Shown: piece after piece, positions 1 to 27,651 of the stretch | Numbering within the stretch: position 1 is the stretch's first letter | Layout of the letters: each line of letters begins with the position of its first letter | IMG/VR virus record: IMGVR_UViG_3300029448_000329 | Coordinates: 1 to 27,651 of that record | Reading direction: 5' to 3' (one strand) | Source: a virus | Length of the DNA: 27,651 bases | Notes under the pieces: model-generated | What the model saw: the letters and a program-made list of their open reading frames with translations, nothing else | Databases searched by the model: none | What the model was told of the DNA's origin: nothing | Translations under genes and position numbers: made by a program

Positions 1-55
1 TAAAATAATCGATTGTGTCGACAGTAAAGAAGCATTAAGAAGGAAGGTGGTGTAA
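1..55 (+). CDS. 3' end of a small protein, paralogue of the 27270-27461 gene (partial)
   Basis: Reading from base 2, the frame encodes KIIDCVDSKEALRRKVV and then TAA at 53-55. This is nearly identical to the C-terminus of the 63-residue protein at 27270-27461, which ends KIIDCVDSKEAVRRKVV. Bases 1-57 differ from 27407-27463 at only four positions (24, 35, 37 and 38). The gene is cut by the window edge. Its stop overlaps the next start as TAATG, as in the downstream copy. It is either a second allele of the same locus or an earlier unit of a tandem array. Function unknown. Confidence 0.75.
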   Translation, partial: KIIDCVDSKEALRRKVV

Positions 56-378
56 TGAGTGTAAACTTTGGTTTTGTTTATAACTGTCCTAAATGCGAAC
101 AAAACAAAATGTATAAAGTGTTTGCACAACAATACATAGATGAAAGTGATATTGAGTATTGCACAAATAAACAGTGCAACCACTTTAAACAGCTTGAAAC
201 TAAGTTTAATAAACTGCAAAACAAAATGTTTAAAAAATACAAACTTTTAATGACTGAGCCAAAAAAATTGCAAAAGTATCATTACAAAGATTGGTACAAG
301 TTGGCGGTTATGTATCAACAAAGAACAAAAAAAATAAAGTTTGTTAGCTCAATTGTTTTTGGCAAACCACTTACTTAA
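55..378 (+). CDS. small zinc-ribbon-like protein
   Basis: This 107-residue protein has two cysteine pairs near its N-terminus, C11-P-K-C14 and C36-x4-C41, a spacing that could bind one zinc ion. The rest is lysine-rich and probably helical (about residues 45-95). A strong Shine-Dalgarno (GGAAGG) lies just upstream, and the start overlaps the preceding stop as TAATG. The last codons run into the 79-base repeat at 367-445. It occupies the same slot as the unrelated 42-residue ORF at 27461-27589, between the same upstream gene and the same terminator. A nucleic-acid-binding role is plausible from the cysteines and basic charge, but no family was recognised. Confidence 0.7.
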   Translation: MSVNFGFVYNCPKCEQNKMYKVFAQQYIDESDIEYCTNKQCNHFKQLETKFNKLQNKMFKKYKLLMTEPKKLQKYHYKDWYKLAVMYQQRTKKIKFVSSIVFGKPLT

Positions 379-445
379 AATGAATTGAGTGAAAAATCGC
401 ACTTGCCGCCGCCTGTGGCAAACACGTTTTTTGGGGGTATATGCT
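367..445 (+). repeat. 79-bp direct repeat, left copy
   Basis: These 79 bases are identical to 27573-27651, the last bases of the window. The unit overlaps the end of the upstream ORF in both copies, but in different reading frames, so conservation is not at the protein level. It contains a terminator-like hairpin (403-432). An exact repeat that ends on the final base is what an assembler leaves when a path re-enters a shared segment. Joining 27651 to 446 would close a circle of 27,206 bp. Confidence 0.95.
403..432 (+). terminator. intrinsic terminator inside the 79-bp repeat
   Basis: TTGCCGC pairs with GTGGCAA (seven pairs, one G-U) around a five-base loop. Five bases later comes a run of six T (427-432). 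It lies directly after the plus-strand cassette gene. The identical hairpin is at 27609-27638. Confidence 0.6.
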
Positions 446-1058: not shown

Positions 1059-1181
1059 TTATTTCAGCACCAGCACAGTACTTTTAAAACACGATCTGCA
1101 AGTATAGGTTTCTGTGCCAGTATCTGAATTTTTACGAAGGGGAACGTAAAACTTATTGTTGCACACGTTCCAACTGTTCAT
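1059..1181 (-). CDS. tiny cysteine-containing ORF overlapping the scaffold end
   Basis: A 40-residue ORF starts at ATG 1181, inside the last codons of the scaffold gene and one frame away. It reads MNSWNVCNNKFYVPLRKN, then a TYTCRSCFKS segment, and ends VLVLK. C7 and the C30-x2-C33 pair resemble a minimal zinc ribbon. Its stop is eight bases before the next start, so it fills an otherwise empty gap in a compact operon. No Shine-Dalgarno is seen. It could also be read as a frameshifted extension of the scaffold protein. Support is composition and spacing only. Confidence 0.4.
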   Translation of the reverse strand: MNSWNVCNNKFYVPLRKNSDTGTETYTCRSCFKSTVLVLK

Positions 1182-1947
1182 ACAAGTTGTACATTTTCTG
1201 TCTGTGTGCTTCACCAACAGGATCACCAGCTGGCAGTTTCATTTTGTCGTCTGCACGCATTTCGTTGATCTGTTCTCTAATTGTAATTGCATTGGCACTT
1301 TGGCTTTGTGCATTTACTATTGGATTTTGTCTGTTGTTCTGCATTAAACTTTGCAAAAATTGTATGCCTTCTGCTGTGTCAACAAGTGGATATTCCAACA
1401 TTCTTTTTGGCAGTGTTTCAGCATACTGTCTAACTGCTCTAATGTTGTTGTCGTAATCATCTTTCCAAACTGTTTTAAGTGCAGTCTGTTCTGTGTTCAA
1501 ATCAGTACGAGGTGCATTTTGTAACTGTTCAGTCAGTTTGTTTACTTGATCACTGTACAGTGCCATAACTTCTTTTGCTTGCTGGTCTGTAAGTTTTGCG
1601 TGTTTGAACGCAGTGTTAACTTCTGTTTTTAAAGTGTCGTCCATATCAGCAAGTCCAAATTCTTTTGTGTAACTAAAGTCGTATTCTTCGGGCACTTTAG
1701 GTGATTTGTCTGCAAGTGTTTTTTCTAACTCCACATAACTCTTTGCCAAATCTTCTGCTGATTTAAATTTTTCGGGCAACCATTCGGGTCTAGCAGTTTC
1801 AGCTGCTGGCTGTTCTGTTGTTGTTTCTACACTAGCATCTGCCAACAGACTGCTGTTTGGTTCTGCTGTTGTCGTTGTTTCTGCTGGTGCTTGTGGGGCG
1901 GCTTGTTTTGTTTCTGCAACTTCTGTTGCTGTGTTGTTTTCTGTCAT
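1153..1947 (-). CDS. capsid scaffolding protein
   Basis: This 264-residue protein has the profile of a T7-type scaffold: an acidic, Ala/Thr/Glu-rich disordered N-terminus (residues 1-50), then RPEWLPEKFKSAEDLAKSY, which is a recurrent scaffold signature (WLPEKF followed by a helix with SYxELE). A long charged, probably coiled-coil helix and a basic C-terminal stretch for binding the capsid shell follow. It would guide assembly of the HK97-fold capsid and then leave the prohead. It sits downstream of the portal gene, the usual position, but the capsid gene that normally follows is at the far end of the window, separated by the plus-strand cassette if the genome is circular. Confidence 0.85.
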   Translation of the reverse strand: MTENNTATEVAETKQAAPQAPAETTTTAEPNSSLLADASVETTTEQPAAETARPEWLPEKFKSAEDLAKSYVELEKTLADKSPKVPEEYDFSYTKEFGLADMDDTLKTEVNTAFKHAKLTDQQAKEVMALYSDQVNKLTEQLQNAPRTDLNTEQTALKTVWKDDYDNNIRAVRQYAETLPKRMLEYPLVDTAEGIQFLQSLMQNNRQNPIVNAQSQSANAITIREQINEMRADDKMKLPAGDPVGEAHRQKMYNLYEQLERVQQ

Positions 1948-5908: not shown

Positions 5909-6214
5909 TTACTGTTCTTTTATTCTGTTTTCAGCTAGTTGTATTAACTTGCTTGCTTCTGTTTTTTCTTCTTGTGAATTTTCACCAGTTGGGTGTAGTG
6001 CACCACTTTTACTTTGTGCCAAATATTTCAGCATCTGTAACTTTGCTCTTTTAGCATTGTCTAAAAAAGTAGTTTTTTTAATGTAGTCTTTATCGTCTTT
6101 GTTTGGATATGATGTATCAAATAGGTCGTGTGCTTGTTCTATTTCATTGTCCCAATATACATCTGCAAATTGTTTTAAAACTTCTAACCATTGTTTTTCT
6201 ATTCTGTTTTTCAT
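5909..6214 (-). CDS. terminase small subunit candidate
   Basis: This 101-residue, charged, mainly helical protein is directly upstream of TerL with a six-base gap. Its start has a good Shine-Dalgarno (AAAGGA) and follows a structured leader. Residues about 45-65 (KKTTFLDNAKRAKLQMLKYLAQ) could form a long helix. Small terminases bind phage DNA and hand it to TerL, and are often this size in T7-like phages. I do not recognise a specific helix-turn-helix, so the call is from position, size and helical character. Confidence 0.6.
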   Translation of the reverse strand: MKNRIEKQWLEVLKQFADVYWDNEIEQAHDLFDTSYPNKDDKDYIKKTTFLDNAKRAKLQMLKYLAQSKSGALHPTGENSQEEKTEASKLIQLAENRIKEQ

Positions 6215-7781: not shown

Positions 7782-8149
7782 GTTTTTATGGAGTCTTTTT
7801 ACCAAACCTTCCAATTTGCACTAGATCAACTGGTGTGCTAATTACTTTTAAGCACACGCACACCTTAAAAACCACCCTTTAAACACCATCAATTAACGAT
7901 GTTCTTTTAGTGTGTCGTTTTTGTGCTGTAAAAAATAGTGTGCAGTTCCCATTTTTTAAAATGCACACTGATTTTACTGTGCAGTTTTGTCATATAAACC
8001 CGCACACAAAACAGCACACTAGCAAGATCAAACTGTAAACAAAGCAAAAACAAAAAAGTAAAAGTGTTGAAAAATAAAGGTTAATTCATTATACAGTGCA
8101 CTTCCTTACAACTTTAAAATTTGTTATTTTTGTATTAGGAAAAAATTTT
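7782..8149. promoter_or_regulatory. non-coding control region with GTGTGC/GCACAC sites, probable attP neighbourhood
   Basis: I see no gene. The region holds GTGTGC at 7833 and 7938, and GCACAC at 7852, 7858, 7963, 8002 and 8014. Further copies flank it at 7635, 7654, 7668, 7695, 7709, 8256 and 8298. AGTGTGCA (7937-7944) and TGCACACT (7962-7969) form a perfect eight-base dyad. 8002 and 8014 are direct repeats 12 bp apart. Clustered short sites next to an integrase and a tRNA fit arm-type or excisionase sites, or repressor operators. Confidence 0.5.
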
Positions 8150-8225
<76 letters not shown>

Positions 8226-8231
8226 AAATTT

Positions 8232-10738: not shown

Positions 10739-12310
10739 CTAAATCAACCTTAAATCACTGCCGTTGGATATTGTTACTGTTTCACCACTTGAAATGGTTA
10801 TTGGAGCAATTAAAAAGTTAACGTGTCCTGCTGTTGTTGTTACTGTGCCAGTGTCTAATGTGCTTTTGTGCGAATAGTATCCGCCACTGCTTGTTATCCT
10901 TATTGGATTTGCAAATTCAGCTTCACCAGCTTCAAATTTGTAAAGAGTTGAACTTGCATTTACGATGTGTGTGTCGCCGTCTGATGAAACAACAGAAACA
11001 CTAGATGAACCATTTTGTATCGTTGAAGCAAAAGAACCAGCACCAACGTCAACACCAGCATTCGTCAATGTTGTGTTTACCCAACCTTTAGTCGCAGCAT
11101 CTGTGTTGTCAGTTGGGTCTGAAAGATTAACAATTCTGTTTGAGTTTGCATCGATGTGTGACGACGGATTGAGTGTTAAATTACCTGTCGATGTTGAAAT
11201 AGTGTTGCCGTCTAAAGTTATGTTATCGACTGTGAAAGTTGTTACGTTGCTTAAAGCCAAGTTGCCACTTGTTGCAGAAACTGTGTTGCCTTCAATTCTA
11301 ACATTGTCTACGTTTAACGTTGTCAGTGTTCCTAAACTTGTGACATTAGTTTGTGCCGCAGTTGTCAACGTTCCAGCTAAATTTGTAGCAGTCAACGTTC
11401 CGTTAACGTTTGTGTTATCGTCTAAAGCAATCGTGCTGTTGTCACTTGAAATAGTGTTTCCATTTAATGTTAAGTTGTCGACAGTAAGTGCAGTCAACGT
11501 TCCTAAACTTGTTACGTTACTTTGTGCGGCTGTGGTTAAAGTTCCAGCTAAATTTGTTGCAGTCACTGTGCCATTAACTGAAGTGTTGTCGTCTAAAGCA
11601 ATAGTGCCAGTCGATGAAGCAATTTGATTATTGTTAAGTGTTAAGTTGTCGACAGTTAAAGAAGTAAGTGTGCCTAAACTTGTAACGTTTGGTTGCGATG
11701 CAGTTGCCAGTGTACCAGTAATGTTGCCACTTGCTGTTATTGTTGAAACATTGGTAGCTCCAGTTACTGATAACTGTCCGCCCACTGATACGTCGCCAGT
11801 TGTAGAAATAGTTGAACCATCGAAACTTGTTGAAACTGTTACGTCACCGCCACTGTCAAATTTTAAGTAAGCATTGGCACGTGATGAAGGAATAGTAAAA
11901 TCTGTTGGTGTTGTTTGGAAGTTGTCTACACGTAAAGTTCTGTTTTCAACTTTGTCGTCAACTTCTTGCAAGCCTTGCATTAATCTGTCTAACGAACTGT
12001 TGATTGCGGCGGCTGTAAAACTACCACTTGTTTGAAAGTCTGTTGCTCTAACTAAGTGTGTATCTCTTTTTAAAATTACAGAAGCACCACTTGATGGGGC
12101 AGAGGTAAAAACAACTGTACCAGTGCCACTGTCGCCACTGTCAAACGTTACACTGTAATCTGCTGTTATTGATTTTTTAACGTTATCTACAAAAACAGCA
12201 ATACTGTTTGCATCAGCTATTTCAAAGTTAAAACTAAATCCAACTGTACTGTCGTCAGCTTGCGTAAAAGTTAATCTGTTTGCACTGTCTGTAAATGCAC
12301 CAACTGTCAT
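10739..12310 (-). CDS. T7 gp17-like tail fibre protein
   Basis: This 523-residue protein has a T7-fibre N-terminal domain (residues 1-150), which attaches the fibre to the tail. It continues with three repeats of 57 residues (197-253, 254-310 and a degenerate copy from 311) built on NVTSLGTLT-LTVDNLTL. Then comes NRIVNLSDPTDNTDAATKGW, a motif of podovirus fibre shafts, and a C-terminal beta region. It would form a trimeric shaft, with the distal tip likely supplied by the next gene. It is the end of the tail module, after the large internal virion proteins. Confidence 0.88.
   Translation of the reverse strand: MTVGAFTDSANRLTFTQADDSTVGFSFNFEIADANSIAVFVDNVKKSITADYSVTFDSGDSGTGTVVFTSAPSSGASVILKRDTHLVRATDFQTSGSFTAAAINSSLDRLMQGLQEVDDKVENRTLRVDNFQTTPTDFTIPSSRANAYLKFDSGGDVTVSTSFDGSTISTTGDVSVGGQLSVTGATNVSTITASGNITGTLATASQPNVTSLGTLTSLTVDNLTLNNNQIASSTGTIALDDNTSVNGTVTATNLAGTLTTAAQSNVTSLGTLTALTVDNLTLNGNTISSDNSTIALDDNTNVNGTLTATNLAGTLTTAAQTNVTSLGTLTTLNVDNVRIEGNTVSATSGNLALSNVTTFTVDNITLDGNTISTSTGNLTLNPSSHIDANSNRIVNLSDPTDNTDAATKGWVNTTLTNAGVDVGAGSFASTIQNGSSSVSVVSSDGDTHIVNASSTLYKFEAGEAEFANPIRITSSGGYYSHKSTLDTGTVTTTAGHVNFLIAPITISSGETVTISNGSDLRLI
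11291..11722 (-). repeat. tandem 171-bp repeats in the tail fibre gene
   Basis: The 57-residue protein repeat corresponds to a 171-bp DNA period. The two full copies (residues 197-253 and 254-310) remain clearly alike at DNA level; the third is partial and diverged. Repeat number could change by recombination and alter shaft length. Confidence 0.75.
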
Positions 12311-20513: not shown

Positions 20514-22543
20514 TCTGTTGTTAAACTTAACAAAGTAAATGCCAGTGGTTCGTCAACTTGTATTGTTACTTGTGGTTGCGAAGTGTAGCCGTTAAGTCTT
20601 ATCCTTTTTATACCTGTAAATTCTGCAATAGGTTGATCTAACAATCCACTTCCTAAAGTTCTAAATGAAACTGTTTTGTTGTCTACTTTTGCACTTTTGC
20701 TTTTATGCATTTGTAATTCAGCAAACAACTTTCTAACTTTTTCACCACTTACTAAACTGTTTCCTAAATTAAAAGTAATAGGCAACGTTTTTGCTGTTGA
20801 AGTGTAACCATATCCTATTTGTGTATTAGAACTAACCTCACTCAAAGTAAAATTGCCAGCCGCAGTTACAGTTATATCTGCGTGCGTGTTTCCATTAGCA
20901 ATTACTTTTACAGTCTGTCCTTGTAATCCGTTTGCACCAGTGTAAGAACTTGAAGTGCTTGATGACGTGTGATGACAGTCTAAGTAAACATCATCAGTTG
21001 TTAATTTTTCTAAAAACAATCCGTTAGTTCTTTCAACTAAACAATATAAACTGTCGTCAACTTCAACTATTTGTTTGAAAGTTCCATTTGTTGTCCAACG
21101 TGTCCAACCAACAACTTCTCTTTCAACATTAATACCCATAACACACAAATCACCATCATTAACCACAACAACGTAGTTTGTGTTGGTGTCTTTGTAATTT
21201 TTTAAGTATTCAATCTGTGTTGCATTGGTCAGCATTGTGTGATGAACAAGTGAGTAGTTTTTTGCACTAAATGCATCAGTGTTAAAATTGTAAACAAAAG
21301 CCCGCAACTGTTTATTACTTTTGTCTACAAACATTGTTTCGTTATCAACTACTTTTGGCTCACTTGTGCCTGTGCTTATTCCGTATCTTGTTTGTTGTCT
21401 TATTAAAACGTTTGAAGGTGTTATTGGCTCACCCGACATATCAAACTCACCATCAGACGTAAAAATGAAAAGTGATTGTTGCGATATTAAATGTTTAATA
21501 ATGTTTAGTTCGTCACTAGCAATTGTAAATGTAAAGCCAGCATCATCTGTAATTTCGCCAGTTGTTGAACTTCCACTTACAACTCTAGTTGTAGGTTTAA
21601 AATTAAAGAAGTCGCCCGACTGAGAAGCAAAAATTGTTTGTGGCTTATCTCTGCTTCCACCAAACACTAATCTGTTTTGATGAAAAGTTAATGAACGTGG
21701 ATACCCGCCACCACGTGTTGAATTTAAATTACTGAAAGCAGTTATTTCCCATTCGTTACCGCCAGCAGTCTGTGTGTCTGCAAGTTCTTCTTCAACAGTA
21801 GCTGTTGCCACTAAGTTAGTGCTGTCTATTGCTGTAATCTTACATAAACCAGCATTAAGTCTTACTCTCATATCAACGTGTCCGTTTGGATAACTTGCAT
21901 TTACCCACGTGTAATTTCCGTTGCTAAGTGTTAATGAAATACTGCCAGTTTTTGCACTAGGTGTTAAATCAGTTGCAAAACTAAAATTTGCAAGTGGAAG
22001 AAAGTCAAAAGTTAAATTACCTATACTCCAATCAGTGTGTTGTGAACCTCTAACAAGTTGAATTGGATTGAAGTCTTTGTGTGTCATAATCATTACATCA
22101 AAAGTTTGTGCAAATCTTATTTCACTGATGTTGTCTGTTGTAATATCAAACACATTGCCATCAACACCATTAGTTAAAACAGCAACTCTGCTATCCAAAT
22201 AATAAACGTGTATTTTTGCAGTTGAACTTATTGTGCTGTCTGCTGGCTCAAAAATTAAAACGTATTCTTGCCCTTCACCAAATTTAAAAGGAATAAGTCT
22301 GCTTTGTGAATGAAAAGAACCTGTTGTTATACTTGTACTTCCGTCTGCAAGTGTTGAACTATCTAAGTTACTTGATATAAATTTAAATCCTCTTCTTTTA
22401 TCTAATCCGCCTTGTGGAAGTAATAAAAAGTTTTCACAAGTTTCTAATCCAGCACGATAGATACCTAATTCAGCTCTGCCTTTAATAAAACTGCCAACTT
22501 CACCTTGTGTGAAAGAAGTTTGTGTGTATCTTCTTATTGTCAT
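20477..22543 (-). CDS. tail tubular protein B (T7 gp12-like)
   Basis: This 688-residue protein opens with RYTQTSFTQGEVGSFIKGR, then YRAGLETCENFLLLPQGG, followed by a KRRGF segment. This opening is characteristic of gp12-type nozzle proteins. The remainder is beta-rich, as expected for the tail nozzle that closes the tube and contacts the host. Length is within the usual range. It starts at TAATG with the gp11-like gene, so the two are coupled. Confidence 0.92.
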   Translation of the reverse strand: MTIRRYTQTSFTQGEVGSFIKGRAELGIYRAGLETCENFLLLPQGGLDKRRGFKFISSNLDSSTLADGSTSITTGSFHSQSRLIPFKFGEGQEYVLIFEPADSTISSTAKIHVYYLDSRVAVLTNGVDGNVFDITTDNISEIRFAQTFDVMIMTHKDFNPIQLVRGSQHTDWSIGNLTFDFLPLANFSFATDLTPSAKTGSISLTLSNGNYTWVNASYPNGHVDMRVRLNAGLCKITAIDSTNLVATATVEEELADTQTAGGNEWEITAFSNLNSTRGGGYPRSLTFHQNRLVFGGSRDKPQTIFASQSGDFFNFKPTTRVVSGSSTTGEITDDAGFTFTIASDELNIIKHLISQQSLFIFTSDGEFDMSGEPITPSNVLIRQQTRYGISTGTSEPKVVDNETMFVDKSNKQLRAFVYNFNTDAFSAKNYSLVHHTMLTNATQIEYLKNYKDTNTNYVVVVNDGDLCVMGINVEREVVGWTRWTTNGTFKQIVEVDDSLYCLVERTNGLFLEKLTTDDVYLDCHHTSSSTSSSYTGANGLQGQTVKVIANGNTHADITVTAAGNFTLSEVSSNTQIGYGYTSTAKTLPITFNLGNSLVSGEKVRKLFAELQMHKSKSAKVDNKTVSFRTLGSGLLDQPIAEFTGIKRIRLNGYTSQPQVTIQVDEPLAFTLLSLTTECNFSTGKYARG

Positions 22544-23157
22544 TAATTTTGCTCGTGTCTAAATCTATCTGACTCACTGCCCATTAAATGTGCTTCAATT
22601 AAACGTCCAGCTGGAACAATATTTTGCGGTGGATTTTCTTGCCCGTCTGCAATTCTGCTTGCTCTTAACTTTTGTTGAAAATCGTTTGCTAGTCTATTTG
22701 TTAATGCACCATTACCAGTAATTGCTTCATTTATTTCAGTAGCAATTTTTGTTACTAATGCTTCAACAAAAAAAGACGGCATATTAGTTTCGTCCATATT
22801 TTGCACATACTCTAAAATAACAGTGTCTAATGATGAAAAAATCTTTTGTCCTTCTTTTCTATACGTGTAGTTAGGTAAGCCGTTTTGATCTATAACTGCT
22901 TTTATTCTTATTACATCGCCGGGTAGACTGTGTGCACTTGTAAATTTTTTGTCAGTTGGAGTTTCTGATAATTTGTTTAATTGTTGCTTATCAATCGCAA
23001 AGTTCCAAAAAGTGTAGTAGAGGAGTGATTTTTTGATTGTGTCGTACATTACAGAACAAACGTTGCTTTCGTGTGTTCCGTCTGAAAATGAAGTAATTGT
23101 GTCAGCACCAACTTTTGTTAATGCTTGTGAACAGATATCGAATTTTGTTAATGCCAT
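22543..23157 (-). CDS. tail tubular protein A (T7 gp11-like)
   Basis: This 204-residue protein has the gp11 adaptor pattern: FDICSQALTKVGADTITSF, a helix with DTIKKSLLYYTFWNFA, a PGDVIRIKAVI strand segment, and a C-terminal helical region with KLRASRIADG. It forms the adaptor ring between portal and nozzle. It lies between capsid and gp12-like genes, with a terminator separating it from the capsid gene. Confidence 0.92.
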   Translation of the reverse strand: MALTKFDICSQALTKVGADTITSFSDGTHESNVCSVMYDTIKKSLLYYTFWNFAIDKQQLNKLSETPTDKKFTSAHSLPGDVIRIKAVIDQNGLPNYTYRKEGQKIFSSLDTVILEYVQNMDETNMPSFFVEALVTKIATEINEAITGNGALTNRLANDFQQKLRASRIADGQENPPQNIVPAGRLIEAHLMGSESDRFRHEQN

Positions 23158-23198
23158 TGTGTTAATCCTTTTTTAATATTTATTGATTTAAAAGAAGA

Positions 23199-23232
23199 AA
23201 GCCGACATCAAATCAATGACATCGGCTTTCAA
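23199..23232 (-). terminator. terminator after the capsid gene
   Basis: GAAAGCCGA and TCGGCTTTC form nine pairs, extended by four more pairs including two G-U. The minus strand then reads TTCTTTT. It lies between capsid and tail genes, so it probably reduces read-through and keeps capsid mRNA in excess. Confidence 0.8.
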
Positions 23233-23255
23233 CTGAGCTTGGTATTAAGTTAGTG

Positions 23256-24140
23256 TTACTCCGTTACGTTAACTCTCGCAATTGCTGTTACATCAATAGC
23301 AGTTGAACCAGCTGAAAATTCCCCAGCAACTAAGTGAGAAACTTTTTGTGGTACGTAGTTAATCATTGCAGTTACATCTTTACCAACTGCAAGTCCTACC
23401 GCATTTTTTTGGAATGCATAACATTTTCTTACACCTGTTGAAGCTTCGTTCAATAGGTTAGAAATGATTATGTTGAATCCTAAAAAGTTAGGTATGAAAC
23501 CAGTTGCTAATGCCGAGTTTGAAATCGGTCCATCAGCAGCAGTTGTTACACCACTGTCTGCTAACAAGTCAGTAAGAGCAGCTGGTGATATAACCATATA
23601 TCTTTCAGCTGTGTCTGCTGATTGAGAGTTTAAACCTTCAGCAACTTCTAAAAATTTTGCTTTAGTTAAACCGCCACTTGCAGTTACAGTAGTTGTAGGT
23701 GAAGATGAATCTAAAGCATCAACGATTTCAGTGTCGTATGCACGTGAAAGAGCCGCCGCAATAGATTCCGCATATGCTTGTCTAAAGTCGAAGTTAACTT
23801 TGAACATATCAAAGTCATCAACGTATTCGCCAGCAACGTAGTTGTTAAGTGTAGCTGTCGCCACTGCGTGTGCCGCAGTTCCACCTGTGTATGTTGCTGA
23901 ACCACCTAAAGATTTTGAAGAGTCAGACATTACTGTAATATCTTCAAATCTGTTTTTGTTTTTAATGTATCCACCTTTGCCTAGTGTATTAAATTTGTAA
24001 GTTGAACCTGTTACGTTTCTTACAGTTCTAATACTTCCAGCAAGTTTAGACATTTTTTGTTGGCTGAGATGTAAAACGTCATCTGCAAATTGTGTTACAA
24101 ATGCGTTTGATACAGTTGAGCCAGCATCTGATAAAGCCAT
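23256..24140 (-). CDS. major capsid protein (HK97-fold type)
   Basis: This 294-residue protein starts MALSDAGSTVSNAFVTQFAD and has the profile of small podovirus capsids: an N-terminal helix, an extended strand with KFNTLGKGGYIKN, a spine-helix region with DFRQAYAESIAAALSRAYDT, and a C-terminal domain with VISPAALTDLLAD and NFLGFNIIISNLL. It has no protease or decoration domain. AGGAG precedes the start. It would form the T=7 shell on the scaffold. The gene is isolated by a 141-base upstream gap and a downstream terminator, consistent with high expression. Confidence 0.9.
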   Translation of the reverse strand: MALSDAGSTVSNAFVTQFADDVLHLSQQKMSKLAGSIRTVRNVTGSTYKFNTLGKGGYIKNKNRFEDITVMSDSSKSLGGSATYTGGTAAHAVATATLNNYVAGEYVDDFDMFKVNFDFRQAYAESIAAALSRAYDTEIVDALDSSSPTTTVTASGGLTKAKFLEVAEGLNSQSADTAERYMVISPAALTDLLADSGVTTAADGPISNSALATGFIPNFLGFNIIISNLLNEASTGVRKCYAFQKNAVGLAVGKDVTAMINYVPQKVSHLVAGEFSAGSTAIDVTAIARVNVTE

Positions 24141-24281
24141 CTTTATCTCCTCTGTTTATAGTTTTTAATTAAAAATTATTTGCTGAATTGTGTTATTGTT
24201 TTTAGGCAGTAAAGTTATCTAAAAAACTTCTAACGTTCGAACTTGTTTTTTACGTGCACCACACGAACAAAATCTTGTTTG
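24141..24281 (-). promoter_or_regulatory. gap upstream of capsid with AT-rich palindrome
   Basis: It holds TTTTTAATTAAAAA, a perfect 14-base palindrome at 24162-24175, and TATAAA on the minus strand close to the capsid Shine-Dalgarno. GTTCGAAC, another palindrome, lies near 24235. A dedicated capsid promoter is possible but I find no clear -35 box. Confidence 0.3.
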
Positions 24282-24935
24282 TTACAAAGAAGGCTTTCGC
24301 AAGTTGTCTTCAAATTTATTTATTTTAATATTCTCAAAACTGTCTAACAATTGTTGAATACGATACTGTGTTTTTTTTAAATCTATATTGCTTACACCAT
24401 CAACTTCTCTGTGCACACATTCTGTGCCACCATCAAAAGCAATATATCTAACAACTCTAAATCCTAACAAGCAACCCATATACAATGCAAGTTCACCTGT
24501 TTTCCAACGGCTCATTTCAAACGTAGGAAAACGTATTGGATAAAAGTTTTCTATTTTTTTATTGTTATCTAATAACCAGTTGTATTTTAAGAGTGGGGCA
24601 CACACTGGTGTTTTAACTTTGTCTTTTGCTAAATCAAATAGAACTTTTGTGTCTTGTGCAACAATCAAATCAACATCAAATTCTTTGTAAATGTAATTAC
24701 AGCCAACAATAAAACTTCTTCTTTTGTATCGTTCTTTTGAACAATATCTTAGTTCATTCAAATCAAAGTTTTTTCTGCTTGTTCCATTGCCAACAACAAA
24801 ACACTGTTGTGATGGGTGTAACAAGTAGCCGTGCCAAACTTTTAAATGATCAGTTATTTCGTGTATGTTTTTGTTGTAGTAAAGTTCTAACTGTTTTCTG
24901 TTAGCAACAGAAACTGGAAACAACCTGTCAGCCAT
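24282..24935 (-). CDS. MAF/DUF115-like glycosyltransferase-type protein
   Basis: This 217-residue protein shows a Rossmann-like pattern: FVVGNGTSRKNFDL (46-59), FIVGCNYIYKEFDVDLIVAQD (75-95, split by eye into two strands), and TGELALYMGCLLGF followed by YIAFDGG (146-170). This order resembles motility accessory factor/DUF115 and related sialyltransferase-like proteins, which handle nonulosonic or other sugars. In this operon it could modify a virion protein or host surface sugar, or act as a fibre/capsid-associated factor. It is coupled to the upstream small gene by TAATG. The family call is by pattern, not alignment. Confidence 0.55.
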   Translation of the reverse strand: MADRLFPVSVANRKQLELYYNKNIHEITDHLKVWHGYLLHPSQQCFVVGNGTSRKNFDLNELRYCSKERYKRRSFIVGCNYIYKEFDVDLIVAQDTKVLFDLAKDKVKTPVCAPLLKYNWLLDNNKKIENFYPIRFPTFEMSRWKTGELALYMGCLLGFRVVRYIAFDGGTECVHREVDGVSNIDLKKTQYRIQQLLDSFENIKINKFEDNLRKPSL

Positions 24936-25081
24936 TATTTGTGTTTTTTAATAACTGGTATGCTTGCAGTTAGAGAAGCACCTCTGTGTTTTGTAAACTT
25001 CTTGCCGTGCTTCATTAATCTTAAATTTTTACCTTTACCCATAAAGTGAAAACCTTTTGGGGCTTTTATATTTTTCTTCAT
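24935..25081 (-). CDS. 48-residue basic protein
   Basis: A compact ORF begins MKKNIKAPKGFHFMGKGKNL and ends ASIPVIKKHK. Sixteen of 48 residues are lysine or arginine, with four histidines. Both ends overlap neighbours as TAATG, so it is almost certainly translated. It belongs to a run of five small basic proteins upstream of the capsid gene. Possible roles are DNA binding or capsid lining; no family recognised. Confidence 0.7.
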   Translation of the reverse strand: MKKNIKAPKGFHFMGKGKNLRLMKHGKKFTKHRGASLTASIPVIKKHK

Positions 25082-25329
25082 TATCTTTTCCTTCTTTTTG
25101 GTGTTCTTCTAAATATGTCTGCATCGGCTTTACGTGCACCACCTTTGCCCGTAACAAAACTGTTTATTCTTCCTCTTTGCCAAGCCGCCAAACTAACACG
25201 TCTACTGCCACTGCTGTAATAAGCACCAGCTGCTCTTCGTGCCACTTGTTTTAGTTGTCCTTCTGTAAATCTAGTTTTACTGGCTTTGTTTCTTATAAAA
25301 CTTGATAAACTACTTTTTCTTTTTTGCAT
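25081..25329 (-). CDS. 82-residue basic protein
   Basis: The protein starts MQKRKSSLSSFIRNKASKTR and ends FRRTPKRRKR. It is rich in Lys, Arg and Ser and also contains AYYSSGSRRVSLAAWQRGRI, which may form a short helix. Its start lies 20 bases inside the previous gene and its stop overlaps the next start as TAATG. No signal peptide or membrane segment. Function unknown; the charge suggests contact with nucleic acid. Confidence 0.7.
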   Translation of the reverse strand: MQKRKSSLSSFIRNKASKTRFTEGQLKQVARRAAGAYYSSGSRRVSLAAWQRGRINSFVTGKGGARKADADIFRRTPKRRKR

Positions 25330-25519
25330 TTCTTCTCTGTGTATCGCCAGCTCTAAACTTACTAATTCTGTTCATCATTGCTGGTGTCAACAGTCCCATT
25401 TTGTACAGTCTAGCTGTACGTTTTATTTCCTTTGCGGCACGTGTTTTATTACGTGAACCTTTTATATACTTACGTGCAACACCTTTTGATTTTGGTACTT
25501 TTCTAAATTTCATCGCCAT
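25310..25519 (-). CDS. 69-residue basic protein
   Basis: About 36% of residues are Lys or Arg. The sequence starts MAMKFRKVPKSKGVARKY and ends NAKKKK, with a central helix TRAAKEIKRTARLYKMGLL. Two starts are possible (25519 and 25513). It overlaps its upstream neighbour by ten bases and its downstream one by twenty, which is typical of a translationally coupled block. Function unknown. Confidence 0.7.
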   Translation of the reverse strand: MAMKFRKVPKSKGVARKYIKGSRNKTRAAKEIKRTARLYKMGLLTPAMMNRISKFRAGDTQRRNAKKKK

Positions 25520-25761
25520 TGCTTACAACTCCAATATCTTGCTGTTGTTCTGTCACGTGCAGTTTTGCAATTGTGTCTTGCTAAAAAACTCTTTTTTCTT
25601 GCGGGTATGTTTTTTTTGATCTTCATTTTGGGGTCACCAAATCGCACTTTTAAAGTGTTACCAGTACGTGGATTCTTCACATAAACAGCAAACTTTTTAG
25701 TTTGATTTGGTGTCCTAAAAGGCTTGTTTAATTTAACTTTTGTACCTTTGTATTCAGCCAT
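25510..25761 (-). CDS. small cysteine-containing protein with RARHNC/ARYWSC-type motif
   Basis: This 83-residue protein has a KKFAVYVKNPRTGNTLKV strand region (22-39), FGDP (41-44), KKSFLARHNC (56-65) and ARYWSC (74-79). I recall this motif order from many small or C-terminal domains of marine phage head-associated proteins, where it looks like a small metal-binding fold using His63, Cys65 and Cys79. The fold and ligand are inference. It follows the 25-residue gene by three bases. Confidence 0.7.
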   Translation of the reverse strand: MAEYKGTKVKLNKPFRTPNQTKKFAVYVKNPRTGNTLKVRFGDPKMKIKKNIPARKKSFLARHNCKTARDRTTARYWSCKQWR

Positions 25762-25764
25762 TAA

Positions 25765-25842
25765 TTATCTTCTTTTTTTGCCTTTTTTTGACTTGTACTT
25801 TTTGCCTTTTTTCATTGTCTTTCTTTTTGAGTGGTATGGCAT
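25765..25842 (-). CDS. 25-residue protamine-like peptide
   Basis: MPYHSKRKTMKKGKKYKSKK followed by GKKRR: 14 of 25 residues are Lys or Arg. A strong Shine-Dalgarno AAGGAG (25854-25849) precedes the ATG, and the gene lies right after a structured leader, so it is the first gene of the basic-protein/capsid operon. Its composition is that of DNA-condensing peptides or a ribosomal-protein-like tail. It could neutralise packaged DNA or bind RNA. Too short for family assignment, but context makes it very likely real. Confidence 0.65.
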   Translation of the reverse strand: MPYHSKRKTMKKGKKYKSKKGKKRR

Positions 25843-25848
25843 TTTGAG

Positions 25849-25923
25849 CTCCTTATTTTAGTCACTGGCAGAACAATTAGACGATGTAGAAAAAAATAAC
25901 TGCCAGTAACAATTTTATTTATA
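25849..25923 (-). promoter_or_regulatory. leader and promoter of the basic-protein/capsid operon
   Basis: On the minus strand a TATAAA box (25923-25918) is followed by ACTGGCAG (25907-25900) that pairs perfectly with CTGCCAGT (25871-25864) around a 28-base loop, then ACTAAA, AAGGAG and ATG. The arrangement, including ACTAAA between stem and Shine-Dalgarno, matches the terminase leader at 6219-6336, though the inner structure differs. Confidence 0.5.
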
Positions 25924-25947
25924 ATGAGTAATGTAGATGAATAAGTT

Positions 25948-26063
25948 GTGCCCCAACGTACGATAGGGTGATGCAATCTTAGTGTGGGGCACTTTGTTAT
26001 TTAAAGACAGAACTAACTGAATGTGTGTTTTTATTAAAAATTCTGTTTTAATAATGTGCCCCA
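25948..26063. promoter_or_regulatory. GTGCCCCA sites (dyad plus third copy)
   Basis: GTGCCCCA at 25948-25955 and its inverse TGGGGCAC at 25985-25992 form a perfect eight-base dyad, and GTGCCCCA recurs at 26056-26063. The first lies about 25 bp upstream of the -10 box of the basic-protein operon, so it could bind an activator of late transcription. It could also be an RNA stem. Confidence 0.45.
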
Positions 26064-26424
26064 AAATATTTACTGTTTTTGATGGTTGTTTTTTTATAAT
26101 TGGAAAATTACTATGCTTAAATTAGCCGCATAAAATAAGGTCTTTTTAGGGGTGGTTGACGTAATAGAGATCCGTGCTAGAATTTTATTATGATTTTGGG
26201 GTTTGCTAGTAAAATAAAAAGTTTTGTAACAATCTCTTTTTAATTACTTCCAAACACAAAGTCAAACATAAAAGTAAAAAAAATTATTTTTTTTTACTTT
26301 ATTAAAAGCTGATTGCAGTAGTGCACTCAGTAAACTGCACACGTATGTCTGCAGTTAACATTACGATCAAAAACCTATCGTAGTGTGTGCGATACGTGTG
26401 CCTAAAAAAAGGAAGGAAAAAAAG
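26064..26424 (+). promoter_or_regulatory. non-coding leader region of the plus-strand cassette
   Basis: No gene longer than 17 codons was seen. It contains the promoter at 26156-26183, GCACAC at 26337 and GTGTGC at 26385 and 26396. ATTACGATCAAAAACCTA at 26360-26377 recurs with one change at 7729-7746 near the integrase promoter. TACGAT (26362-26367) pairs ATCGTA (26377-26382), and TGCAGT pairs ACTGCA just upstream. The leader is about 235 bases long. Confidence 0.45.
26156..26183 (+). promoter_or_regulatory. sigma-70-type promoter of the plus-strand cassette
   Basis: TTGACG (26156-26161), a 16-base spacer and TAGAAT (26178-26183) give the best host-type promoter I found on the plus strand. 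It points at the 281-residue gene. It could be active from the prophage or immediately after infection. Confidence 0.6.
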
Positions 26425-27270
26425 ATGGAAAAAGGACTGTTAAAACAAGTAACACAAAAAAGAGCTACTATGTGGCAAGCACGTACTGATTTGGCTCAAC
26501 TTACAAAAGCAGAAAATATTATTACAAAAGTAATAGATAAAGTCACAAAAAATGTTGATTTAAAAGACATAACAAACAGCTATTTTGATGACATAATATT
26601 TGATGTAGGTAGACACATTTACGAATGTAAAAATGATGAGGTAAGCACTCCAAATCAAAAATCGCCATTTGCTAAATTTGTAGCAAACAAAAAAAAGGAA
26701 GAGCAAAATCAGTTGCTAATAAGTGAATTGAGAAAAGTAATAGACATACTCAATGACCACAGAAATAGTTGGTATAAGTCAAAAAGTTCAGATCAACAGC
26801 TAATAAAAAAATTAACTGATTTGAAATACACAATAAAAGAAAGGAAAGTAATTGATACTTCTGCTGCTAGTAATTGTTTGCGTGCACACAATATGGGGAC
26901 AAGTAAAAGAAATAGTATTTTAGAAGAGTTATATACTCAATCTAAAAAAACACGTTCTCAGTTTGTGGAAGAAATGAGAGAAATTGCTCGTAAGCAAAGT
27001 AATGCAAATGCAAGTATTGCACGTGTTATTAAGTTCGAACAATATCTTAAAAACAAAGAAGTTCCATTTGCATACAAAGGCAAAGGATACGAAGGCAATA
27101 AAATGATTGATGTAGAAGGTGTGATGTGGGCTCGAAGTGAAAAAGAAGCATACGACAGATTAGAAACTTACTCAGACCAATATCAATATAATGTGCAGAT
27201 GTATTGCAGTGATTTAACTGTAAAAGAATTGCCATCAACTTTTAGCAATAAACAAAAGGCGGCAGTGTAA
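26425..27270 (+). CDS. hypothetical cassette protein, highly charged
   Basis: I chose ATG 26425 because GGAAGG lies just upstream; an in-frame ATG at 26383 would place the ribosome site inside the protein. The 281-residue product is hydrophilic and helical, with many Lys and Glu. It has a central helix region (KKKEEQNQLLISELRKVIDI), a stretch with EELYTQSKKTRSQFVEEM, and a C-terminal part with VMWARSEKEAYDRLETYSDQ. That last part loosely resembles the Trp-Ile-Gly/Ala-Ser pattern of the next gene. No catalytic motif is visible. It is driven by its own promoter, opposite to the virion genes. Replication, repression and host takeover are all open. Confidence 0.75.
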   Translation: MEKGLLKQVTQKRATMWQARTDLAQLTKAENIITKVIDKVTKNVDLKDITNSYFDDIIFDVGRHIYECKNDEVSTPNQKSPFAKFVANKKKEEQNQLLISELRKVIDILNDHRNSWYKSKSSDQQLIKKLTDLKYTIKERKVIDTSAASNCLRAHNMGTSKRNSILEELYTQSKKTRSQFVEEMREIARKQSNANASIARVIKFEQYLKNKEVPFAYKGKGYEGNKMIDVEGVMWARSEKEAYDRLETYSDQYQYNVQMYCSDLTVKELPSTFSNKQKAAV

Positions 27271-27461
27271 TGGCAGAGCAGACATACAGAGTTGTTTGGA
27301 TTGGCGAAGAAGAAATCATTGCGTCAAATTCTAAACAGGCAAAACAGATTGCGTCAAAACAACTAGCCAGCACAATCGATGAAAGTGAACTTAAAATTAA
27401 AAAGTTTAAAATAATCGATTGTGTCGACAGCAAAGAAGCAGTGCGAAGGAAGGTGGTGTAA
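27270..27461 (+). CDS. 63-residue cassette protein (paralogue of the fragment at 1-55)
   Basis: The protein begins MAEQTYRVVWIGEEEIIASN, then has a basic helix with KQAKQIASKQLAST, a short strand with ELKIKKFKIIDCVD, and ends RRKVV. The strand-helix-strand order suggests a small alpha/beta fold. It is coupled to the upstream gene and to the downstream ORF by TAATG at both ends. Its last 57 bases, including the next start codon, are repeated at 1-57 with 93% identity. Function unknown; it is the constant gene just before a variable slot. Confidence 0.75.
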   Translation: MAEQTYRVVWIGEEEIIASNSKQAKQIASKQLASTIDESELKIKKFKIIDCVDSKEAVRRKVV

Positions 27462-27589
27462 TGATAATTGTTAAACGTAAAAAAAATGAAACAGCAAAGC
27501 AAGCAATGAAAAGAGTAAGAAAACTTTTTATAAAAGATATGCGGAGTATTGCAAAACAAATTAAAAAAAGCCCCACTTACTTAAAATGA
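27461..27589 (+). CDS. 42-residue basic peptide in the variable slot
   Basis: MIIVKRKKNETAKQAMKRVR, a middle helix with KLFIKDMRSIAKQI, and end TYLK. Over a third of residues are basic. It shares the strong GGAAGG ribosome site and TAATG overlap of the upstream copy, but its protein is unrelated to the 107-residue zinc-ribbon-like protein found there. It ends inside the 79-bp repeat. Probably translated; function unknown. Confidence 0.6.
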   Translation: MIIVKRKKNETAKQAMKRVRKLFIKDMRSIAKQIKKSPTYLK

Positions 27590-27651
27590 ATTGAGTGAAA
27601 AATCGCACTTGCCGCCGCCTGTGGCAAACACGTTTTTTGGGGGTATATGCT
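27573..27651 (+). repeat. 79-bp direct repeat, right copy
   Basis: Identical to 367-445 and cut by the window end. It includes the terminator-like hairpin (27609-27638). The sequence beyond is not in the window; if the genome is circular it continues at 446. Confidence 0.95.

Follow-up and report, generated by a model that had tools for sequence, protein, structure and literature searches.

The window analysed here is a complete IMG/VR virus record of 27,651 nucleotides, classed as 'linear'. Our analysis makes it very probable that the window represents one turn of a circularisable genome of ~27.2 kb (446–27651) plus a 366-bp alternative allele joined on the left by the assembler, and that both ends belong to one accessory-gene slot with cassette exchange. 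'Circular' here denotes a circularisable gene order, not the physical form of the virion DNA, and the junction in the sample is a predicted one. The phage is a temperate podovirus of SAR11 without a close isolate. New are this temperate podovirus lineage of SAR11, the precise borders of the slot and its conserved noncoding flank. More generally, population-level gene swapping can leave a near-complete phage genome classed 'linear'.

Two probable alleles at the ends of the contig

Because the window is the whole record, its ends are those of the assembled contig and not of a cut-out. The following features make up the two ends:

1–57, plus strand: upstream flank of the left allele, the 3' end of a 63-aa gene
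55–378, plus strand: left-hand cassette, a 107-aa zinc-ribbon-like protein (zn107), its stop supplied by the flank
367–445, plus strand: constant downstream flank, left copy, with a predicted terminator hairpin at 403–421 (TTGCCGCCGCCTGTGGCAA) and a T run
27270–27461, plus strand: constant gene 2, 63 aa, upstream flank of the swap slot
27451–27463, plus strand: linker AGGTGGTGTAATG, a ribosome-binding site (RBS) with overlapping stop and start; second copy at 45–57
27461–27589, plus strand: right-hand cassette, a basic 42-aa peptide, its stop supplied by the flank
27573–27651, plus strand: constant downstream flank, right copy, 76 bp of it identical in contig L087

An earlier note on this DNA had described an exact 79-bp repeat of 367–445 at the window's end, a 93% copy of 27407–27463 at the other end, and unrelated ORFs between these flanks, and its coordinates all hold. 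Bases 367–445 and 27573–27651 agree at 79/79 positions, the right copy stopping at the record's final base, and bases 1–57 differ from 27407–27463 at four of 57 positions (93% identity). At this base composition the chance expectation for 79-bp direct repeats is ~1e-36, and the longest chance repeat is ~15 bp. The flanks enclose 309 bp (58–366) at the left end and 109 bp (27464–27572) at the right. The protein encoded by the left insert carries the pattern CPKC...CTNKQC. Both cassette ORFs run into the common flank and terminate there in different frames, with TAA at 376–378 and TGA at 27587–27589. No direct terminal repeat was found in the record, as its last 79 bases equal 367–445 and not 1–79. 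We infer, as the simplest reading of these ends, that the contig is a side branch plus a loop that re-enters the same 79-mer in a k=79 assembly graph.

It is very unlikely that the left 366 bp are instead an assembly chimera derived from an unrelated virus, with no real alternative allele behind them. The sample is a mixed community, and no relative of zn107 was found in IMG/VR, phage records or PHROGs, both of which a chimera would accommodate. However, bases 1–57 represent the 3' end of that 63-aa gene, its linker included, the zn107 frame enters the flank and stops there, and variation of the slot is proven by other contigs. We also regard it as rather improbable that the contig stops at a physical end of the genome (cos, pac or a terminal repeat) and not at a break caused by population variation. 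Two contigs of the species do end 3 bp apart (27648 and 27651) in the conserved noncoding block, and the P2/P4 hotspots adjoin cos (PMC9122126). Nevertheless, the left allele and contig L004 read straight through this position, and other contigs stop elsewhere, at 27376 (L086/L126) or before 710 and 432 (the L005 and L007 contigs). The missing terminal repeat further argues against a physical end, as does the location expected for a packaging site, the small gene upstream of the terminase (5909–6214), which lies far away.

Probable circular closure restores the late gene order

Two late genes on the minus strand served as anchors for the gene order:

1153–1947, minus strand: scaffold protein gene, anchor on one side of the island, placed by its position between portal and capsid
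23256–24140, minus strand: major capsid protein (MCP) gene, anchor beyond the island's other side, phrog_3437

The Pelagibacteraceae single cell AG-916-B03 (hereafter SAG) holds an integrated prophage of the window's lineage, with 83% identity in the portal and 84% in the MCP. The prophage contig begins inside the terminase gene and continues through portal, scaffold, island, capsid, tail genes, fibres and tRNA-Lys into host genes. The scaffold and capsid genes, which lie at the two far ends of the open window, are separated by 5.4 kb in the prophage, and the island is located in this interval. Portal, scaffold, island and MCP thus occur in one molecule, in the order that results from closing 27651 onto 446. 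L004 likewise has scaffold gene, noncoding block, flank and island genes in one uninterrupted stretch. Comparison of the closed window with the SAG prophage gives a single homology block that extends from 27573 across the 27651/446 join to 771, and the homology with L004 also crosses the join (368–504). The earlier proposal that closure at 27651/446 restores the late gene order is therefore supported by the gene orders of the prophage and L004 and by unbroken homology over 27573–771. The scaffold protein matches phrog_3742 (unknown function) and phrog_458, with 71–78% identity in near relatives.

If the slot breaks assembly, contigs carrying the MCP gene are expected to stop before the scaffold gene. 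This was the case for 7/7 MCP contigs of at least 12 kb (P ~1.4e-4, assuming uniform and independent ends).

A temperate podovirus lineage of SAR11

SAR11 are the ocean's most abundant bacteria and dominate the surface ocean; to our knowledge, few of their temperate phages have been described. PHROGs profiles identified terminase, portal, capsid, tail tubes, internal virion proteins, tail fibre and integrase in the window. Replication genes (polymerase, primase, helicase) were not recognised among the proteins scanned, a set that covered part of the small ORFs. The best matches in phage records were 28% for the portal (EXVC032P Baldr), 34% for the capsid (EXVC031P Hodr) and 28–30% for the terminase, and a blastn search of 22500–27651 against these records gave no match. 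The lineage is one of ~27 kb that integrates at tRNA-Lys, shows 28–34% identity to isolates in portal, terminase and capsid, and is linked to its host via a single cell. Among 397 host-family genomes sampled, one carried a prophage of the lineage and six others had distant portal matches only.

The attachment site carries the following tRNA, which alone reached its threshold in Rfam searches:

8150–8225, plus strand: tRNA-Lys(TTT), at the attachment site, adjoining the integrase

The 46 bp at 8143–8188 are identical to the truncated host tRNA-Lys at the SAG prophage junction. There the host tRNA-Lys is split after the anticodon and the prophage supplies a complete tRNA-Lys of its own, apparently as a replacement for the split host copy (SAG contig, L132/L133, 26729–26804 and 27090–27135). 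The integrase belongs to the phage families phrog_1/phrog_216 and sits at attP. The integrated prophage, together with its tRNA-Lys junction, indicates that the phage is temperate and infects SAR11.

Several further observations were made in these regions. The complete tRNA-Lys at the window's attachment site (8143–8228) is the same as the host tRNA-Lys in its 5' half. The prophage's own tRNA-Lys is 90% identical to that of the window and has an encoded CCA. Contig L126 (19.2 kb, 99.7% identical) ends within the window's tRNA-Lys, at 8172. The tail-fibre gene contains 171-bp direct repeats with 71–75% identity at 11277–11718.

Architecture of the island

The island is a small operon that opposes the late genes and lies between the scaffold gene and the capsid operon. 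Its order is a conserved promoter, the gene at 26425, the 63-aa gene at 27270, one or more variable cassettes, and the constant flank with its terminator. Besides the elements given above, it comprises:

26156–26183, plus strand: predicted sigma-70-like promoter TTGACG-16-TAGAAT, with TG before the -10 (score 10/12)
26425–27270, plus strand: constant gene 1, 281 aa, with a possible GTG start at 26383
446–790, no strand assigned: conserved noncoding block between island and scaffold gene, aligned in several relatives

The promoter match alone is not above chance for the region (2 found, 2.7 expected). The SAG prophage, L100 and L102 also have the core TTGACR-16-TAGAAT, within a conserved block that precedes the island, making four loci with the window. 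An own promoter (26156–26183) and terminator (403–421), as in moron loci, are thus both predicted.

Homologs of constant gene 1, of 142–150 aa and 246 aa, occupy the same place in L004, SAG, L111 and L106. An AF2 model of the SAG homolog (pLDDT 86.6) consists of four helices and a b-b-a-b-a domain. A fold search with this model returned no match in PDB or BFVD at E <= 0.001; part of it weakly resembles small phage proteins and ribosomal protein LX. L004 and the SAG prophage have homologs of the 63-aa protein at this position, likewise 63 aa long (40–41% identity), and L087 has one with 100% identity. The AF2 model of the 63-aa protein, with a pLDDT of 46, gave no usable fold.

The short motif AGGYGGYRTAATG, allowing at most one mismatch, matched ten times in the sequences scanned, nine of them at island gene junctions, with 0.2 expected per ~100 kb of shuffled sequence. 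DNA pattern matches at L136–L138 were rejected as chance. Within the downstream flank, CACTTACTTAAAA and AAAATCGnACTTGCCGCC are kept in SAG and L004. Further on, in the noncoding block, the element GGCTCACGCCTTCGGCGTGGCTA at 723–745 has a core that SAG, L004, the L005 contig, L141 and L142 share without change, with variation in L007; it is almost invariant in relatives with 70–80% protein identity. Candidate roles for the block are an origin, a packaging site or a terminator. In RNAalifold its covariation term was about zero, and no structure is claimed for it.

Contents of the slot differ among relatives

The number of genes in the slot differs from locus to locus: one in the window's left allele, one in its right allele, none in L087, two in L004 (112 aa and 94 aa) and about four to five in the SAG prophage (127, 83 and 226 aa plus about two more small ORFs). 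L087 is 98.7% identical to the window over 6.8 kb and differs in the slot. SAG and L004 share 82% identity up to the end of the 63-aa gene, no homology in the cassette and 78% from the flank onward. In independent comparisons, downstream homology restarts at the same base (27573 = 367, CCACTTACTTAAAA). The SAG 127-aa and L004 112-aa proteins are distant homologs (33%); among the loci compared, each of the remaining cassette proteins of the window, SAG and L004 occurs in a single contig. The 42-aa peptide likewise matched nothing in PHROGs, nothing at cut-off in Pfam and nothing among these loci. The empty allele of L087 (6651–6749) contains a 14-bp hairpin; the flank's CCCCACTTACT forms its right arm, and its left arm is absent from the alleles of the window.

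The earlier note had read the locus as a possible swap site and suggested a search of relatives for other ORFs between the flanks. That search yielded the two genes of L004, the four to five of the prophage and the empty slot of L087; with the two window alleles, five contents now stand between the same two flanks, in addition to the contig pair L110/L111 described below. As in hotspots of the P2/P4 type, the locus is bracketed by conserved genes, namely the scaffold and capsid-operon genes in the SAG prophage, L018/L124, L017 and the closed window, and there is turnover inside and conservation outside, the flanks in the near clade being 78–100% identical.

The alternative offered by the earlier note, a true tandem array of cassettes, fared poorly. 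It would have the genome continue past 27651 into more copies, with 1–366 as another copy on the same molecule, and two copies of both flanks are indeed present in one contig. These copies, however, are at opposite contig ends and not adjacent. Moreover, the other slot-spanning loci (L004, L087 and the prophage, 3/3) each carry one upstream and one downstream flank, and the single prophage slot holds several genes without repeated flanks. We therefore consider such an array extremely unlikely. An integron-like arrangement implies a repeated recombination site for each cassette in one molecule; the prophage, L004 and L087 show only one pair of flanks each.

Proposed exchange of cassettes

Returning to the reading of one slot with exchanged cassettes, two contigs from one sample bear on the exchange. 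L110 and L111 are 84.7% identical over 8.7 kb on the capsid side, have different island genes, and are 98.4% identical over the 183 bp beyond (binomial P 4e-10 against the core rate); the two show a similar swap, possibly in the very slot of the window, and both contigs end there. This pattern would be a sign of recent segment exchange between two phage species.

Such identity patterns suggest that phages exchange cassettes through homologous recombination within the conserved flanks, which might occur when phages and prophages meet in one cell. The short RBS/TAATG linkers between genes are perhaps further recombination points. AGGYGGYRTAATG could provide short homology at gene junctions; it is also a ribosome site with a stop/start overlap, and selection for translation may explain it. 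As the operon has its own predicted promoter and terminator, production of the cassette proteins probably takes place in the lysogen or at an early stage of infection, and they may act on the host or on competing phages.

A more specific mechanism, which we think unlikely, would make the downstream border a dedicated breakpoint. The exchange would start from a site that is cleaved or nicked during the phage cycle, and the RBS/TAATG linkers would provide the second crossover. The idea builds on the restart at the same base in independent comparisons and on the two cassette genes being cut in different frames. The cleaved site could be a packaging end, a replication origin or the target of a specific nuclease. 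If true, this would be a phage cassette-exchange system without a recombinase of its own.

Comparison with known accessory loci

The slot is an accessory-gene hotspot, a kind of locus already known from P2/P4 phages and marine genomic islands, in a new host lineage and with unusually clear borders. Like the P2/P4 hotspots, it is small (~1–5 kb there, ~2–4 kb here) with rapid gene turnover between conserved temperate-phage genes, and flanking recombination, as we suggest here, has been proposed for those hotspots (PMC9122126). P2/P4 cargo has been shown to be anti-phage (PMC9122126), whereas no defence family was recognised in the slot of the window. In addition, the P2/P4 loci adjoin cos and the present slot adjoins a conserved noncoding block, and the host here is SAR11, infected by a podovirus that has no close isolate.

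Metaviromic or viral genomic islands of pelagic phages are also variable at the population level and break short-read assembly (Mizuno et al. 2014, PMC3909814; Warwick-Dugdale et al. 2019, PMC6487183); for 25/66 islands of marine phages, populations were reported to contain alternative arrangements of genes (PMC6487183). Such islands under-recruit reads of their own habitat, and the contig breaks at the present slot would be consistent with this. Those islands were delimited by how reads recruit to them, and host-recognition genes are among their contents, whereas the present slot is an operon of its own, directed against the late genes and with defined borders. Compared with phage morons and lysogeny accessory loci (PMC7067206), the slot similarly places accessory genes outside the lytic programme, with a predicted promoter and terminator among late genes. 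It differs from morons in that replacement is confined to the content in between, while the first two genes and the two ends of the locus stay conserved.

No cassette function was recognised at convincing scores in Pfam, PHROGs or PADLOC; PADLOC gave weak partial matches only, the best of them (E 9e-4) covering a 120-aa stretch of a 1283-aa model. If the P2/P4 hotspots (PMC9122126) and the genomic islands of marine phages (PMC3909814; PMC6487183) are taken as a guide, competition with other phages or adjustment to host strains would be the likeliest roles of the cassettes. With the slot mapped, its accessory genes can be collected by their flanks.

The island in more distant phages

Around the capsid gene of the isolate EXVC031P Hodr, all annotated genes share one direction, with no opposite-strand island. 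Distant relatives among L008–L028 carry opposite-strand ORFs of varying number and size in the same interval. These relatives also have a ~190-aa gene directly after the scaffold gene, which is absent from the window; its copy in L018 (5773–6348) encodes a 2OG-Fe(II) oxygenase (PF13640, E 1e-18).
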